Source: Candidatus Gastranaerophilales bacterium
Lineage (GTDB): Bacteria; Bacillota; Clostridia; Lachnospirales; Lachnospiraceae
Reading direction: 5' to 3'
Assembly: GCA_023663225.1 (NCBI GenBank)
Contig: JAMPHU010000015.1
Span: 1 to 56,640 of the forward strand
Length of the DNA: 56,640 bases
Shown here: in pieces, positions 30,317 through 38,460 of the stretch
Layout: each line of letters starts with the position of its first letter
Numbering within the stretch: position 1 is the first letter of the stretch
Notes under the pieces: generated by a model
Database searches by the model: none
What the model was told of the DNA's origin: nothing
Seen by the model: the letters and a program-made list of their open reading frames with translations, nothing else
Made by a program: the position numbers and the translations under genes

Positions 30317-31255
30317 TCAGTATATCTGCGCCTGCTGTTTTTTCCGGTACTGATAAGGACTGATGCCGGTCTGCTTCTTAAATGCGGAACAAAAATAATT
30401 ACTGGACGAAAAGCCGAGATCGAAAGCCAGATCCGTTATGGACGAGTTCGAGGTCTCTAACAGGGTCTTGGCTTTTTCTATTTTCTGCAGAGTGATGAAC
30501 TCTGCCGGAGTAATTCCTACCTCCTCCTTGAACTTCGCTTTGAAGCGGGAGAGAGAATAGCCGGAGATCTTGGCCAACTCCGCCAGGGACAGCGCACGGT
30601 TGAAATTCTTTTCTACATAATCCAGCGTGCGCTGCATGGATGTATCAATGGGACGGACGATCTCGTCTCCTATAGGCTGCAGATAGATGAGATTGTGCAG
30701 GAAACAGGAGAGATATTGTACACCTGTATGGATATCGTGCGGGTCAGCGCTGCTGAACAGATGAAAAGCCGTGCGGATCTGCTGCAGGGCGGAGACGGAC
30801 AGCGTCAGACGCCTGTATTTTAAGGCTAGAAGCCGGTCGCAGAGCGCGTTGCTGTACTCCTGGTTCAGGCCCAGAAGATTGTCCCGCTCCCTTGTGATGA
30901 GCTGCAGGGCGTAGAACTCGCAGGGTGTCTGCGGCAGGGAACCTGTGCTGTGCAACTCATAGGGAAATGTGAGAAACACCTCGTTTCCCATGATGTTATA
31001 GGATTTCGGCTGTCCCTTATTCTCGAGTATACACACACGCTTTCCCTTTACCATACAATGTATCTCCATCATGTCGGAATGAAAATGCATGGAAGTCGGG
31101 GGTTCCGAAGTGTTCAGCCTCCAGTGGGTAAAGTTGCCGAGTCCGGAGAGATGGTGTACGTCTCTGGTAATCACCTGTTTGTCCTTCTGCCACAGATAAT
31201 CGTCAAATATTTCCTGCGCGGGGAATGGAATGTTTTTTTGTCTGGAAGCTGCCAT
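30317..31255 (-). CDS. AraC family regulator
   Basis: A 312-residue regulator. The N-terminal cupin-like region (STSMHFHSD-type and MEIHCMVKGKRVCILEN) would sense a sugar. The C-terminal 100 residues carry the two helix-turn-helix motifs: LSLAELAKISGYSLSRFKAKFKEEVG and SSITDLAFDLGFSSSNYFCSAFKKQTG, ending ISPYQYRKK. AGGGAG precedes the ATG at 31255 on the minus strand. It is divergent from the GH106-like, fucI, aldolase and sialidase-like cluster, separated by 196 bases, and is the natural candidate for its regulator. It is clearly different in sequence from the AraC protein at 12432-13247. Confidence 0.93.
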   Translation of the reverse strand: MAASRQKNIPFPAQEIFDDYLWQKDKQVITRDVHHLSGLGNFTHWRLNTSEPPTSMHFHSDMMEIHCMVKGKRVCILENKGQPKSYNIMGNEVFLTFPYELHSTGSLPQTPCEFYALQLITRERDNLLGLNQEYSNALCDRLLALKYRRLTLSVSALQQIRTAFHLFSSADPHDIHTGVQYLSCFLHNLIYLQPIGDEIVRPIDTSMQRTLDYVEKNFNRALSLAELAKISGYSLSRFKAKFKEEVGITPAEFITLQKIEKAKTLLETSNSSITDLAFDLGFSSSNYFCSAFKKQTGISPYQYRKKQQAQIY

Positions 31256-31451: not shown

Positions 31452-34400
31452 ATGGACGAAGCTTTGAGAAAGGAATTTAGGATGCCCGGAGCGGACAAGC
31501 GTTCCATACCCTTTTGGGCCTGGAACGCAAAGTTGGATGAGGAAGAGCTGAGATGTCAGGTTCGCCAGATGAAGGAGGCCGGCGTAGGGGGATTCTTCAT
31601 TCACTCCCGGGAAGGCCTGGAGACCGATTATCTGGGGGAGCAATGGATGAACTGCGTGAAAGCCGTGGTGCAGGAGGCCAAGGTTCAGGGTATCTATGCG
31701 TGGCTGTACGACGAGGACAGATGGCCCTCAGGGACAGCGGGCGGCAGAGTGACCTCTTGTGGCGACGCATACCGCTGCAAGGGATTGGCCATGGAAATTC
31801 TCCCCGCCGCCGCTTACGGCGAGCTGTACGAAAAGGAAATCAGACCCAAAAAGACCTCTGGGGATGAAGCGGTGGGAATTTTGGCGGTTTACGGAGCAAA
31901 GATATGCGGGGACAGTCTCGTGAGCTATCGGCGTCTGGAGATGGGCGAAGAGGAACCCTTTGGGGACAATGAGGTGGTTCTGGCGGTGCGTCTGGAGGTC
32001 TCGGCGCCCAGCGAGTGGTTTAACAACGAAGCGCCTCCGGACAACTTAAACCCTGACTGTGTGCGGAAGTTCATCCGGGAGACGCATGAGAAATACCGAA
32101 AAGCAGTAGGGGAGGAGTTCGGGAAAACGATAAGAGGTATTTTTACCGACGAGCCGAGCCTCAACGACAGGTTCTCCTATTTTGGGGAGAAGAAAAGCTG
32201 GATTCCATGGACTTACGGTTACGGGGCTTTTTTTAAAGAGCGGATGGGATACGATTTTTTGGACGTGCTGCCGCTGTTCTATTTTCACGGGGAAAATTCT
32301 CCTGAAATAAGGCACGATTACTGGTGCAGCATCGCCCAGAGGTACGGGGAGAGCTATTTTAAGACGCTGGGGGAATGGTGTGAGGAGAACCGTCTCTTGT
32401 TTACGGGCCATTTCCTGCAGGAGGACAAATTGGGACTCAGCACCAGGGTAAACGGTGCGGTTATGCCGCATTATCAGTATATGCATGTGCCGGGCATCGA
32501 CATGCTCTGTGAGCAGACGAATGAATATATGACGGTAAAACAGTGTACCAGTGTGGCGCGCCAACTGGGAAAAAAGCATGTCATCACAGAGACCTACGGG
32601 TGTACGGGTTGGGATTTTACCTTTGAGGGCCAGAAATGGATGGGCGACTGGCAATATGTTCTGGGGGTGAACAGACGATGCCAACATTTGATGCATTACA
32701 GTCTGAGAGGGTGCAGAAAAAGGGATTATCCCCCGTGTTTTAACTACAATACCACATGGTGGAGAGAAAACCGGATTGTGGACGACTATTTTGCCAGACT
32801 GTCGGCAGTGTTGGAGCAGGGTGACGCGGTCAGGGATATTCTCCTGCTGCATCCGGTTTCCACGGCGTGGTCCAGACTGGGTGTGAACCCTTATGGAAAT
32901 CCAAAAAGGCGCGGGGAGAGAGATGTGCCGGCAATCAATGAATACGGAGAGCGCTTCAACGGACTGATCGAATACCTGATGCGCAGGCACCTGGATTGCG
33001 ATCTGGGAGATGAACTGATTATCCAGAAATACGGTAGAATAGATTCGGGGAAATTCGTAATCGGAGAGGCCGCTTACCGTGCGGTGGTTTTGCCGCCCAT
33101 GGATACCATGCTTCTCTCCACCGCGGAAAAGCTTCTGGAGTACATGGAACAGGGCGGGTTCATCTATGCTATGACGCCCTGCGCGCATCTGGTGGGAGCA
33201 AGTAGGGAACACAGGGATATTTTGGAGAAGCTGGAAACCCACAGAAATTGGCGCACGGTGGATAGCAGAGAGGAACTGGCAAAGAGTCTGGAACCCTATC
33301 GCAGAATCCATGTGGAGAATGTTGACGGAGAGGAGTGCGGGGATGTCCTGTGCCAGTTGCGGAAGAAGGGGGAGGAATACTACCTGTTCCTTGTGAACAA
33401 TAGCCGCGGCAGAACGGCGGACGTGACGGTGAAGCTGGGATTCCATGCAGAAATCATGCGGATGGATCTATTGAGCGGAGAAGTGACCGAGGTTTCCTGC
33501 GGAAACGATGTAGAGGGCGCCGCCGGCATGCAGGTGCATTTGGAAAAGACGGGTTCGGCGTTGTTTGGCCTGAGAGAGAAAAAGACGGAGATACTGCAAT
33601 ATGAAGGCCCGTTCTCCTACCGCCTCAACCGCGGAAATGTTCTGACGCTGGACAGATGCAGATACCGGATGAACGGAGACGAATGGTTGGGAGAGATGGA
33701 GGTGTGGCAGGCCCAAAAAGAGATTCGGGAAGCTCTGAAAATGCGCCCTGTTTACCGTAACGGAATCGAACAGCGCTATAAATGGATCGACAAGCCGCAT
33801 CCGGGGAACGGGACGCCGGTGGAACTGATTTTTCGTTTTACCTCTCATCTGCCGATCAGTGGTGCGGCGGTTGCCCTGGAGCGGCCGGAGGAGTTTCGCA
33901 TATTCCTGAATGGGGAGGAGATTCTACGGGAAATGGACGGGTGGTTTCTGGACAAAGAAATTCAAAAGTGGAAGCTGCCGGAAATTGTGCAGGGGGAAAA
34001 TGAGTTGCTCCTGATCTGCGAGTACCGCAACGACATGGAGCTGGAAAATATCTATCTGACGGGCGCGTTCGGAGTGGACGCACAGAGATGCCTCACGGCG
34101 CTTCCGGAGAAACTTTGCGCGGGAAACTGGACGGAGCATGGTCTGCGGCATTATTGTGGAAATGTGATTTATCAAGTAGAATACAGGAGGGAGGAAATCT
34201 CGGACGGGGAGAAAGTCTGGCTCAGACTGCCGCCCACAGAGGGCATCTGTGTGAAGGTGCGGGTCAACGGCAGCGAGACTATCCTTCCATGGAATTTTGA
34301 GAGAAGGATTTCCATTGAAAAATGGCTTCGCCCGGGAGAAAATACCATTGAGGCGGAAGTGGTGGGAAGTCCGCGGAATATGATGGGCCCCTTCCACCTG

Positions 34401-34523
34401 AAAGAAAAGCCGGCCAGTACAAGCGCCGCCAGCTTCTGCCCTTCTGCGGAAGTCTACTCCGAAGATTACCTGCTGGCCCCTTACGGACTTATGGGCGCTA
34501 TCGAGATTATCAGGGAACTGTGA
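31452..34523 (+). CDS. Large glycoside hydrolase, GH106-like (alpha-L-rhamnosidase type)
   Basis: A 1023-residue protein. The N-terminal block PFWAWNAKLDEEELRCQVRQ, GVGGFFIHSREGLET and AWLYDEDRWPSGTAGG is the pattern I associate with the GH106 family and its relatives, where a TIM barrel is followed by beta-sandwich domains; length is also right. Acidic candidates for catalysis are in RGIFTDEPSLNDRF and VITETYGCTGWDF. From about residue 700 the sequence is strand-rich, ending in a galactose-binding-like module. There is no signal peptide, so it is likely cytosolic. GGAGGT precedes the ATG at 31452. It is first in a four-gene cluster; its neighbours suggest it removes a deoxyhexose (L-rhamnose) from an imported oligosaccharide. 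Exact family assignment needs a profile search. Confidence 0.72.
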   Translation: MDEALRKEFRMPGADKRSIPFWAWNAKLDEEELRCQVRQMKEAGVGGFFIHSREGLETDYLGEQWMNCVKAVVQEAKVQGIYAWLYDEDRWPSGTAGGRVTSCGDAYRCKGLAMEILPAAAYGELYEKEIRPKKTSGDEAVGILAVYGAKICGDSLVSYRRLEMGEEEPFGDNEVVLAVRLEVSAPSEWFNNEAPPDNLNPDCVRKFIRETHEKYRKAVGEEFGKTIRGIFTDEPSLNDRFSYFGEKKSWIPWTYGYGAFFKERMGYDFLDVLPLFYFHGENSPEIRHDYWCSIAQRYGESYFKTLGEWCEENRLLFTGHFLQEDKLGLSTRVNGAVMPHYQYMHVPGIDMLCEQTNEYMTVKQCTSVARQLGKKHVITETYGCTGWDFTFEGQKWMGDWQYVLGVNRRCQHLMHYSLRGCRKRDYPPCFNYNTTWWRENRIVDDYFARLSAVLEQGDAVRDILLLHPVSTAWSRLGVNPYGNPKRRGERDVPAINEYGERFNGLIEYLMRRHLDCDLGDELIIQKYGRIDSGKFVIGEAAYRAVVLPPMDTMLLSTAEKLLEYMEQGGFIYAMTPCAHLVGASREHRDILEKLETHRNWRTVDSREELAKSLEPYRRIHVENVDGEECGDVLCQLRKKGEEYYLFLVNNSRGRTADVTVKLGFHAEIMRMDLLSGEVTEVSCGNDVEGAAGMQVHLEKTGSALFGLREKKTEILQYEGPFSYRLNRGNVLTLDRCRYRMNGDEWLGEMEVWQAQKEIREALKMRPVYRNGIEQRYKWIDKPHPGNGTPVELIFRFTSHLPISGAAVALERPEEFRIFLNGEEILREMDGWFLDKEIQKWKLPEIVQGENELLLICEYRNDMELENIYLTGAFGVDAQRCLTALPEKLCAGNWTEHGLRHYCGNVIYQVEYRREEISDGEKVWLRLPPTEGICVKVRVNGSETILPWNFERRISIEKWLRPGENTIEAEVVGSPRNMMGPFHLKEKPASTSAASFCPSAEVYSEDYLLAPYGLMGAIEIIREL

Positions 34524-34611
34524 GCAAAGACAGCCGACAAAAAGGATGTAGCAGAGAATGAAGTAATAATGAAATAAAAAGTGCCGGTAAAGGCAGAAAG
34601 GAAGTAAAATT

Positions 34612-36408
34612 ATGCCAGAAAACAGATTGATTGGAAAAAATCCTGTAATCGGTATTCGTCCGGTTATCGACGCCAGAAGGGGGTATCTGAAGGTGAGGGA
34701 GTCTCTGGAGGAACAGACCATGAACATGGCCCGATCCGCAAAGAAGCTCTATGAGGAGAACTTAAGATACAGCGACGGAGAGCCAGTGGAGGTGGTGATC
34801 TCACCCGTAACCATCGGCCGTGTGGCGGAGGCCGCTCAGTGCGCGGACTATTTTGAGAGTCAGGGCGTGGCGGTCACGCTGACAGTGACTCCCTGCTGGT
34901 GTTATGGAGCGGAGACCATGGATATGGCGAAGAATACCATCAAGGGAGTGTGGGGATTCAACGGAACAGAGCGCCCCGGCGCGGTCTATCTGGCTTCCGT
35001 GCTGGCTACCCATGCCCAGAAGGGCCTGCCCGCTTTCGGAATATACGGACATGATGTACAGGAGGCGGATGCGACGGATATACCGGAGGATGTGCGGGAG
35101 AAGCTTCTTCGCTTCGGACGCGCCGCAGTGGCAGTTGCCTCCATGAGAGGAAAGTCCTATCTGCAGATTGGCTCTATCTGTATGGGAATTGGCGGCTCCA
35201 TCATCGATCCGGCCTTTATCGAGGAATATCTTGGTATGCGTGTGGAGTCCGTGGATGAGGTGGAGATTATCCGCCGCATGAATCAGGAGATTTACGACAA
35301 AGAGGAGTTTGAGAAGGCTTATAAATGGACGAGGGAACACTGTAAGGAGGGATTTGACAAGAACCCTCCCGAGATTCAGAAGACGCTCGAGGAAAAGGAA
35401 GAGGACTGGAAATTTGTGGTCAAGATGATGTGTATTATTAAGGATCTCATGAGCGGCAACAAGAACCTTCCGGCGGGCCGTGAGGAGGAGATGGCCGGGC
35501 ACAATGCCATCGCCGCGGGTTTTCAGGGACAGCGTCAGTGGACGGACTACTATCCGAACTGCGATTTTGCGGAGGCTCTGCTCAACACAACCTTCGACTG
35601 GAACGGAGCGAGAGAGCCGTATATACTGGCTACAGAGAATGATACCTTAAACGGTCTGGGGATGCTTTTCCTGAAGCTTTTGACCAACAGGGCGCAGATT
35701 TTTGCGGATGTGCGCACCTACTGGAGTCCGGAGGCTGTGAAGAAAGCGACGGGTTATGAGTTGGAGGGCGTTGCGAAGGATGCGGGCGGTTTTATCCACC
35801 TGATCAATTCCGGTGCGGCGTGTCTGGATGCAAGTGGACAGTCTAAGGATGCTTCGGGCAATGGCGTGATGAAACCCTGGTATGAGGTCACAGAGGAGGA
35901 TCAGAAAGCAATGTTGGAGGCGACCACCTGGAACGAGGCGGATTTCGGTTATTTTCGCGGAGGAGGGTATTCTTCCAGATTTGTGACGGAAGTGGAGATG
36001 CCTGTGACCATGATCCGCTTGAATCTGGTGAAAGGTCTGGGGCCGGTGGTGCAGATTGCCGAGGGTTGGACTGTAAAGCTGCCGGAAGAGGTGACGGACA
36101 TCCTCTGGAAGCGCACGGATTACACTTGGCCGTGCACTTGGTTTGCACCCAGATGTGATGGGAAGGAGGGGCCTTTCAGGAGCGCTTATGATGTGATGAA
36201 CAACTGGGGGGCAAACCACGGCGCTATCAGCTACGGGCATGTGGGCGCGGATTTGATTACCATGTGTTCCATGCTGCGTATTCCCGTATGCATGCACAAT
36301 GTGCCGGAGGAGAAAATCTTCCGTCCCGCCGCATGGAACGCATTTGGAATGGATAAGGAAGGACAGGACTACAGGGCATGTGCGGCTTACGGCCCTATGT
36401 ATCGCTAG
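34612..36408 (+). CDS. fucI: L-fucose / D-arabinose isomerase
   Basis: Interconverts L-fucose and L-fuculose, and D-arabinose and D-ribulose, using Mn2+ in the cytosol. The 598-residue protein has the full family architecture: N-terminal domain starting [26 protein letters not shown], the [15 protein letters not shown] segment, the metal-site region with [47 protein letters not shown], and the C-terminal [32 protein letters not shown]. The ATG at 34612 has AAGGAAG upstream. It lies between a GH106-like hydrolase and a DHDPS-family aldolase. No fuculokinase or fuculose-phosphate aldolase is present, which leaves D-arabinose as a plausible alternative substrate (see findings). Confidence 0.95.
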
Positions 36409-36452
36409 GCGGACATCGATTTGATCTATGGTAACGAGAAAGGGAGGAGGAT

Positions 36453-37373
36453 ATGGAGACAAGAAAATTTCCCGGAGGCGTATGGCCGGTGATGCTGACG
36501 CCGTTTCAACCGAACGGCGAAGTGGACTACGAGGGATTGAAGGCTCTGACGGACTGGTATATAGTAAGAGGCAGCAGGGGACTGTTTGCAATCTGCCAGT
36601 CTAGCGAGATGTTTTTCCTGAGTTTGGAGGAACGCCTTGAGACGGCTCGGGCAGTGGTGCGATACGCAGGCGGCAGAGTGCCTGTGATCGCCTGCGGCAA
36701 CATCTGTGACACTGTGGAGGAACAGATCGAGGAGACCCGCCGCATGGCGGAGACCGGAGTGGATGCGGTGATCCTGATCACGAATCAGTTTGCTTCGGCG
36801 GACGAAAGCGACGCGGTATGGATGAAGCGCTGCGAGAACTTCCTGCGTGAGATTGACGAGAAGATTCCCTTGGGTTTTTACGAATGTCCTTATCCGTATA
36901 AGCGGTTGATTTCTCTCGATAACCTAGGGAAATGCGCCCGGACAGGGAGGTTTTATTTCCTGAAGGATACCTGTTGTGATCTTGAGACAATAAAGCAGAG
37001 GTTGACGGCGGTACAAGGCACGAATTTAAAAATCTACAATGCCAACAGCGCGACCCTTTTGGAATCGCTTCTCTGCGGGGTGCACGGCTTCAGCGGCGTC
37101 ATGGCGAATTTCCATACGGATCTCTATGCATATCTGTGTGACCATACCATGGATGCGGATATCCGTCTCCTGCAGGGTTTCCTGACGGTGGCTTCCTGGG
37201 CGGAGAGCAGATACTATCCCATGAACGCGAAGTATTACCTTCAGAAGTGCGAGAAGCTTCCCATTGACACTTACTGCAGGAGGCTGGATGGCAAGGGGAT
37301 GAATGACACCCTGATGTGTGAAATGGAACTGTTCGGAGAGTTGACGGAGGAGATCAGGAAGCATTGTGGATGA
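36453..37373 (+). CDS. DHDPS/NanA-family aldolase (2-keto-3-deoxy acid lyase type)
   Basis: A 306-residue TIM-barrel Schiff-base aldolase. The Schiff-base Lys is Lys171 in RFYFLKDTC, and the catalytic Tyr is Tyr143 in GFYECP. The N-terminal GGVWPVMLTPF is typical of the superfamily, but the phosphate or carboxylate loop reads AICQSSEMFFLS rather than GTTGE, so it is not dihydrodipicolinate synthase proper. Family members cleave N-acetylneuraminate, KDG, Kdo-like or other 2-keto-3-deoxy acids to pyruvate and an aldehyde. GGGAGGAGG precedes the ATG at 36453. It lies between fucI and a sialidase-fold hydrolase, so the substrate should be the ulosonic acid that the hydrolase releases. Confidence 0.88.
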   Translation: METRKFPGGVWPVMLTPFQPNGEVDYEGLKALTDWYIVRGSRGLFAICQSSEMFFLSLEERLETARAVVRYAGGRVPVIACGNICDTVEEQIEETRRMAETGVDAVILITNQFASADESDAVWMKRCENFLREIDEKIPLGFYECPYPYKRLISLDNLGKCARTGRFYFLKDTCCDLETIKQRLTAVQGTNLKIYNANSATLLESLLCGVHGFSGVMANFHTDLYAYLCDHTMDADIRLLQGFLTVASWAESRYYPMNAKYYLQKCEKLPIDTYCRRLDGKGMNDTLMCEMELFGELTEEIRKHCG

Positions 37374-37431
37374 CAGCGGCGGAGGAAAGTGGCAGTATAC
37401 CGGCGTGATACTGCAGAAATCGGAGGAAAGA

Positions 37432-38460
37432 ATGAAAGTAAAAAGTATGGTAAAGGAACTGATCGTGGAAGAGGAGAGGGCGTTTGACAGCGGACATGCT
37501 TCCACGCTTGTACAGGCGGCGGACAAAACCGTGGTGGCCGCGTGGTTCGGCGGAAGCTGGGAAAAGGCTCCGGACGTGGCAATCTGGCTTTCCCGCAGAG
37601 TGAACGGCATATGGGAGACGCCAAGGGTTGTGGCGGACGTGAGGGGAGTGGCCACCTGGAACCCTGTGCTTTTCCGCAGGGAGGACGATTCCATCATCCT
37701 GTTCTACAAGGTAGGGCCGACCATTCCCACTTGGAAGACATGGTATGTGGAAAGCAGCGACAACGGCGTCACTTTCTCCGAACCCAAAGAGTTGGTGCCC
37801 GGGGATGAGCAGGGCGGCAGGGGCCCCGTGAAGAATAAGCCTATCCGTCTGGCGGACGGAACCGTCCTCGCACCTGCTTCTTTTGAGGGAGAGTTGTGGG
37901 ACGCTTTCGTAGACATCTCCACGGATGACTGCGCTACCTGGGAGATGAGCCGCATGGTGCCCCTGCGGAGGGCCGGCATCGACGTGCGCGCCATGAATCG
38001 CCCTTACAATAAGTACCATATCTACGGGAAAGGCGTGATTCAACCCACGCTGTGGCAGGATGAAACCGGAGAGGTGCACATGTTTCTGCGAAGCACCTCG
38101 TCTCGCATTTTCCGCAGCGATTCAGGAGACGGCGGGCGTACCTGGTGTACGGCTTACGACACGGGACTTCCTCACAACAACAGCGGGATCGATCTGGTCA
38201 GGATGGGTAACGGAGATATCGTGCTCGTGTACAATCCGAGGGAGAATTATCCCGGTATGTTCAAAGGCTCCCGCACGCCTCTGTCCGTGGCGGTCTCTGG
38301 GGATAACGGAGAGACGTTTGAGCGCTTAGTTGATCTTGAGACCACGCAGGGAAATTTCTGCTATCCTTCGGTGATCTGCGGCGCGAATCAGGAGGTTATG
38401 ATTACTTATACCTGGGATCGAAAGACCGTTGCCTACTGTGAGCTGACATACGAAAGGTGA
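37432..38460 (+). CDS. Sialidase-fold exo-hydrolase, BNR/Asp-box family
   Basis: A 342-residue six-bladed propeller protein of the sialidase superfamily (BNR_2 type). Four Asp-box-like repeats are visible: SSDNGVTF, STDDCATW, SGDGGRTW and SGDNGETF. The N-terminus has the family block FDSGHASTLVQ, AAWFGGSWEKAPDVAIWLSRR and WNPVLFRREDDSIILFYKVG. There is no signal peptide and no FRIP/YRIP motif, so it is not a classical secreted sialidase and is probably cytosolic. Superfamily enzymes release sialic acid, KDN, Kdo or Dha. GGAGG lies five bases before the ATG at 37432; a longer frame upstream overlaps the aldolase gene by 8 bases but has no better start. It is the last gene of the cluster. Confidence 0.82.
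   Translation: MKVKSMVKELIVEEERAFDSGHASTLVQAADKTVVAAWFGGSWEKAPDVAIWLSRRVNGIWETPRVVADVRGVATWNPVLFRREDDSIILFYKVGPTIPTWKTWYVESSDNGVTFSEPKELVPGDEQGGRGPVKNKPIRLADGTVLAPASFEGELWDAFVDISTDDCATWEMSRMVPLRRAGIDVRAMNRPYNKYHIYGKGVIQPTLWQDETGEVHMFLRSTSSRIFRSDSGDGGRTWCTAYDTGLPHNNSGIDLVRMGNGDIVLVYNPRENYPGMFKGSRTPLSVAVSGDNGETFERLVDLETTQGNFCYPSVICGANQEVMITYTWDRKTVAYCELTYER

Follow-up and report, generated by a model that had tools for sequence, protein, structure and literature searches.

The 56,640-nucleotide stretch of contig JAMPHU010000015.1 analysed here (the window; the genome it belongs to, that of a gut-type bacterium labelled Candidatus Gastranaerophilales bacterium, is G000) carries four consecutive forward-strand genes that quite probably strip a rhamnose cap from 3-deoxy-D-manno-oct-2-ulosonic acid (Kdo), an uncommon sugar acid found in plant cell walls, and then break the Kdo down to common metabolites, the substrate probably being pectin-derived. 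These genes encode a GH106-like glycosidase (31452..34523), the L-fucose/D-arabinose isomerase FucI (34612..36408), a class I aldolase of the DHDPS superfamily that we call AldK (36453..37373), and a putative sialidase-fold BNR_2 hydrolase that we call BNRk (37432..38460, with a longer open reading frame starting from a GTG at 37366). In the proposed mechanism the GH106-like enzyme would remove rhamnose, BNRk would hydrolyse the glycosidic bond of Kdo, AldK would split free Kdo at the C3-C4 bond into pyruvate and D-arabinose, and FucI would isomerise D-arabinose to D-ribulose, which would be phosphorylated by a kinase encoded outside the cluster. An earlier, sequence-only reading of the window had spoken of complete breakdown, which is overstated, since neither a D-ribulose kinase nor an importer is found within the four-gene cluster. 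The core of the chain (Kdo release, its cleavage and the isomerization of D-arabinose) is supported by gene neighbourhoods, gene fusions, a phylogenetic profile and the contrast with a second type of cluster predicted to act on 3-deoxy-D-lyxo-heptulosaric acid (Dha), all of it evidence from sequence.

A search with BNRk (P0004) found matches in 28 of the family's 299 genomes; in 14 of these (the window's included) the match was close, at E 2.5e-80 or better, and they gave 15 loci, while the other 14, matched only weakly (E 6e-15 or worse), were left out. The class search, in which 44 of 391 genomes matched, supplied the best 14 outside the window, and four loci of named records completed a set of 33, with L033 dropped as a duplicate of L037, L050-L052 left out as distant, and L032 and L034 possibly kin of genomes already counted. 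In 17 of the 33 loci, counting the window, AldK lies near BNRk; in two of these, at L154:530-2464 (644 residues, domains confirmed) and L155:8099-10045 (648 residues), the two are fused into a single chain, an arrangement that ties the aldolase to the product of the propeller. A GH106-like gene stands near BNRk in 10/33 loci and FucI in four, three intact and one, L044, broken. BNRk, FucI and AldK form one same-strand run in L035, a metagenome-assembled genome labelled Oscillospiraceae, another family, while L048 (genome G170) holds a run of IclR, BNRk, AldK, TctC, TctB, TctA, YhcH and a second FucI, in which the carboxylate transporter and the sialic-anomerase-family protein (YhcH) are what one would expect to find with an acidic ulosonic sugar. 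In the genus of G000, the only further genome searched, G022, has neither BNRk nor FucI; possession of the cluster therefore varies within the genus.

FucI enzymes in general act on D-arabinose, giving D-ribulose, and this is the reaction we predict for the window's FucI, the only fucI match in G000. The protein passes two NCBIfam fucI equivalog cut-offs (1037 and 971 bits against 775 and 850) and matches solved L-fucose isomerases and D-arabinose isomerase alike, at 839.3 and 838.5 bits. Every one of the 14 close-BNRk genomes of the family has full-length FucI, as do 73 of the 285 others (p=1.4e-8 by Fisher tests that assume independent genomes, an assumption only roughly true for 299 genomes from 298 genera; 4 of the 91 FucI genomes, having partial matches, were counted as lacking it). 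With the three FucI-linked genomes removed, the count is still 11/11 (p=6e-7), and genomes with the Dha-type cluster display no clear link to FucI (6/13, p=0.14). The sequence-only reading had also drawn on the lack of a fuculokinase, an argument we have dropped: the cut-off for the E. coli-type enzyme is passed by none of 40 genomes, 14 with BNRk and 26 others with FucI, so that its lack is uninformative.

For AldK, the earlier assignment to the DHDPS/NanA family was borne out by a Pfam DHDPS match and by the invariance of the Schiff-base Lys171 and of Tyr143 in 15/15 aligned sequences. We predict that AldK splits Kdo to pyruvate and D-arabinose; cleavage of Kdo between C3 and C4 yields these two products, the second a known FucI substrate. 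The protein falls under every specific NCBIfam cut-off listed, including that of the nanA equivalog (40.8 versus 382 bits), and reads NANS or NANT where NanA has GYDE. It occurs in 12 of the 14 close-BNRk genomes (in four on another contig) versus 1 of 13 controls (p=6e-5), the controls being hand-picked as 11 Dha-type genomes and two others. The predicted reaction, Kdo to and from pyruvate and D-arabinose, is that of Kdo aldolase (EC 4.1.2.23). It is also that of the N-acetylneuraminate lyase (NAL) enzymes of the same superfamily, which synthesise Kdo from D-arabinose and pyruvate, at a D-arabinose rate of 1-1.5% of that with N-acetylmannosamine (ManNAc) (PMC4016182). Kdo formation there is a side activity, whereas AldK forms a clade of its own.

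The claim that the fourth protein has a sialidase fold held as far as the fold is concerned, with a Pfam BNR_2 match and with an AlphaFold model and a fold match both giving the sialidase beta-propeller; the GH33 catalytic set, by profile alignment, is incomplete. A single-sequence search of the PDB with BNRk returned no match, and a profile of 27 sequences did match. The active site was read from profile alignments rather than superposed coordinates, and in the alignment to NanI, Tyr333 of BNRk takes the place of the nucleophile, Arg242 that of the second arginine in the triad and Arg303 perhaps that of the third. His44, Asp70, Arg152, Asn271, Asn272 and Arg352 are invariant in 27/27 aligned propellers. 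As three GH33 catalytic residues are missing by alignment, BNRk should not be named a GH33 sialidase; it likely works like a sialidase but on Kdo. Neither the BNR_2 clade of BNRk nor that of its sister group matches any NCBIfam model.

Removal of rhamnose, also claimed earlier, is less firm than the Kdo core, although the family assignment of the first protein and its recurrence beside BNRk both speak for it. We predict this protein to be a cytosolic alpha-L-rhamnosidase acting on Rha-Kdo; no signal peptides are visible in the operon. Its score against PF17132 exceeds the cut-off (56.3 versus 29 bits), and a seven-sequence profile of GH106-like proteins matches three solved GH106-type chains. 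Glu234 and Glu380, invariant in the seven aligned sequences, are the candidate catalytic pair, of which Glu380 aligns by motif with the GH106 base; the corresponding pair in BT0986 is Glu461 and Glu593.

As a source of the substrate, the best reading for the near clade of BNRk is rhamnogalacturonan II (RG-II). In this polysaccharide, side chain C consists of alpha-L-Rha-(1-5)-Kdo, and side chains C and D carry Kdo and Dha (PMC12282258, PMC11288761); vascular plants have RG-II in their primary walls (PMC11288761), which makes it part of the diet. The earlier reading had remarked that the cluster fits the pectin genes around it. Genes for galacturonate and pectin use (UxaC, UxaB-like, UxaA-like, GH28 and pectinesterase) lie ~8-18 kb upstream, and elsewhere in G000 (contig C20:11176-20312; L165, L166) a GH127 gene, a xylulokinase gene and a GH140 apiosidase gene (324 bits) fall within ~9 kb. 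A strong apiosidase match, strong being E 1.3e-59 or better (28 of 61 matching genomes) by a threshold set after the list had been viewed, is present in 6 of the 8 nearest-BNRk genomes (p=1e-5) and in 0 of the 6 other close-BNRk genomes; at E 1e-3 the count is 8 of 14 BNRk genomes, all in the near clade, versus 53 of 285 others. A strong BT_1020-type propeller occurs in 4/14 close-BNRk genomes (p=0.002; 2 of the 15 matching genomes were dropped before counting). The attribution to RG-II is supported less firmly than the Kdo core: apiosidase co-occurrence is limited to the near clade, the BT_1020-type propeller is found in those 4/14 genomes only, and outside the near clade RG-II is a less certain source. 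The RG-II system of Bacteroides thetaiotaomicron comprises the BT_1020 propeller, a GH140 apiosidase and others (PMC12282258, PMC6118326). The predicted sugars, rhamnosyl-Kdo and Dha, are the same there, and G000 shares GH140 and GH127, but the window's genes differ in forming a small operon that includes the downstream aldolase and isomerase and has no visible signal peptides.

Several findings weigh against the proposed pathway. In BNRk, Trp98 stands at the position of the RIP arginine and Gln226 at that of the glutamate (His in the sister clade), and the catalytic Asp loop of GH33 has no counterpart by profile alignment; with all three missing, hydrolase activity is not certain, and we know of no characterised enzyme in the subfamily. 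The PF17132 match of the GH106-like protein is partial, the specific rhamnosidase model is far off (70.9 versus 1300 bits), and the acid position falls on Ile251 in the alignment, Glu234 (of TDEP) being our proposed equivalent. AldK is missing nearby in 16/33 loci and FucI in 29/33, some on short contigs, and AldK is missing altogether in two of the 14 close-BNRk genomes, G016 (87% complete) and G174 (76% complete). Genomes with BT_1020 are themselves rich in FucI (10/13, p=4e-4; 6 of the 9 without BNRk, p=0.02), so part of the FucI signal may reflect a general plant-glycan lifestyle, and in other BNRk genomes FucI may simply serve L-fucose. No apiosidase match was found in the six more distant BNRk genomes and, unlike in B. 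thetaiotaomicron, no BT_1020 homologue in G000. For the ABC binding protein of relatives, G000 yields matches of 24-29% identity but no ortholog, a gap in the pathway on the side of uptake.

Salvage of Kdo from something other than RG-II, whether lipopolysaccharide (LPS) core, capsules or free Kdo entering via carboxylate transporters, strikes us as unlikely, even though the relatives L044 and L048 lack a GH106-like gene but carry a TctC-type one, the six distant BNRk genomes have neither an apiosidase nor a BT_1020 match, and the LPS core of E. coli K-12 has Rha on Kdo; the window's pectin genes, GH28 in L039, L176 and L177, and the apiosidase and GH127 in G000 speak to the contrary. We give distinctly less credence to use of host glycans, in which a sialidase and a NanA-type lyase would handle N-acetylneuraminic acid (Neu5Ac) or 2-keto-3-deoxynononic acid (KDN) and FucI would handle L-fucose. 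The sialidase fold, the DHDPS/NanA superfamily and the passing of the fucI equivalog all accord with it, but AldK misses the nanA equivalog, the sialidase catalytic set is incomplete, a GH106-like partner is present, and the four-gene cluster has neither a fucosidase nor a kinase. NanE is required for sialic acid use; it was not found in G000 and is above cut-off in 6/14 close-BNRk genomes. With the nanA equivalog, NanE and GH33 motif tests all contrary, the sialic-acid reading is not favoured.

DHDPS-superfamily aldolases also act in oxidative deoxy-sugar routes, and AldK could in principle yield pyruvate and lactaldehyde from 2-keto-3-deoxy-L-rhamnonate or -fuconate, in which case rhamnose or fucose would be handled by FucI and by the GH106-like enzyme, a possible supplier of rhamnose. 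We judge this very improbable: genes for a sugar dehydrogenase, a lactonase and a dehydratase are all lacking from the cluster, AldK is tied through its fusion with the propeller to the propeller's product, and RhaB and RhaD, which normally serve rhamnose, lie elsewhere in G000. Nan operons hold a sialidase, NanA lyase, YhcH and a transporter. They and the window's cluster are alike in pairing a sialidase-fold enzyme with a NanA-superfamily lyase, to which L048 adds the carboxylate transporter and YhcH, yet here FucI replaces NanE/NanK, AldK scores under the NanA cut-off and the propeller is without the GH33 residues.

A sister BNR_2 clade, 25-29% identical to BNRk and found in 13/299 family genomes at E 2.5e-115 or better (22 of 35 matching genomes were dropped before counting), has different partners. 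Its 13 loci hold the DHDPS-superfamily aldolase AldD, a DtnK-like kinase, a PdxA-type protein and an iron-dependent alcohol dehydrogenase in 12 cases each. The full set occurs in 11 loci, though in one of them the PdxA match spans only 77 residues, and the locus with the fewest of these genes is on a contig of 5.3 kb. FucI is absent from all 13, and DtnK from all 33 Kdo-type loci. The best NCBIfam model for the kinase is D-threonate kinase (190 bits against a cut-off of 450); the PdxA-type protein scores above the cut-off of the general pdxA model and also reaches 343 versus 583 with the D-threonate 4-phosphate dehydrogenase model. By our own stereochemical derivation, cleavage of Dha would give pyruvate and D-threuronate, to be reduced to D-threonate, so D-threonate-type genes beside the sister clade are what Dha, the other ulosonic acid of RG-II, would need. 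D-threonate catabolism uses DtnK and PdxA2, and the likeness lies in the DtnK-like and PdxA-type genes that accompany the sister clade; the difference is that these genes lie outside the window and are proposed as a lower route for Dha. The PARTG arginine, which in DHDPS binds a substrate carboxylate, is kept in 4/4 AldD aligned, whereas AldK instead has PYPYK or PYPFK (11/11). In alignment A1 the rows L090, L092 and L096 begin at in-frame trimmed starts. In G158 a strong homologue of the BT_1020 propeller (294 bits) is 7-12 kb away from all four Dha-type genes, and six loci around larger BNR_2 proteins have a strong BT_1020 propeller inside or within 1 kb, four of the six holding the four gene types.

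For both propeller clades, then, the accompanying downstream genes agree with the predicted sugar. A broader proposal, which we regard as evenly poised, is that Gram-positive gut bacteria have two parallel and as yet unassigned routes for the Kdo and Dha of RG-II, each with a sialidase-fold BNR_2 hydrolase and a dedicated DHDPS-superfamily aldolase, Kdo proceeding via D-arabinose and FucI, and Dha via D-threuronate, an Fe-dependent reductase, D-threonate kinase and PdxA2 to dihydroxyacetone phosphate. If so, both routes would start with a BNR_2 protein with a rewired active site, and the clades would make up one or two new hydrolase families. No Kdo- or Dha-catabolic cluster of these kinds appeared among the matches listed for the open-licence PMC literature. 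The proposals, if true, would supply genes for the intracellular fate of RG-II's two odd sugar acids, would give a dedicated Kdo-cleavage gene and a function for the BNR_2 clades, and would caution against taking such sialidase-like genes as a sign of mucin use. Predicted Dha-route clusters comprise those with a sister-clade BNR_2 protein (L051, L052, L089-L099) and those with a BT_1020-type propeller (L083, L086-L088). At L083:7513-10029 an 838-residue protein joins an FGE-sulfatase-type domain to a following BNR_2 domain beside predicted Dha genes, and open reading frames of 787-832 residues adjoin PdxA in L086-L088.

Family profiles and coordinates confirmed the arrangement of the window's four genes on one strand beside a divergent AraC-family gene (30317..31255, reverse strand; Pfam HTH_AraC and HTH_18). 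This gene is probably the local regulator of the cluster; a homologue 53% identical to it is divergent to the L048 cluster. Of the FGGY family of kinases, G000 yielded GlpK, XylB, RhaB (beside RhaD) and one unassigned member. A named relative, Acetatifactor muris DSM 23669, has a BNRk of 86% identity. Among the relatives, L031 (Acetatifactor muris) and L039 share a run of IclR, AldK, two ABC permeases, a binding protein, BNRk, the GH106-like protein and a second BNR_2 protein. This last protein matches the Pfam model named for BT_1020 at 30.9 and 28.2 bits, respectively, against a cut-off of 27, over 55 residues only; its best solved matches are sialidases, and a chain named beta-L-arabinobiosidase ranks lower. 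GH28 adjoins the cluster in L039 and, in L176 and L177, is no more than 3 kb from AldK. At L044:104-656 a fucI remnant stands beside BNRk and AldK, an intact copy being present elsewhere in that genome, and at L042:16175-17707, at the end of a Kdo-type cluster, a 510-residue protein combines DUF5060, apiosidase-like and DUF5605 domains.

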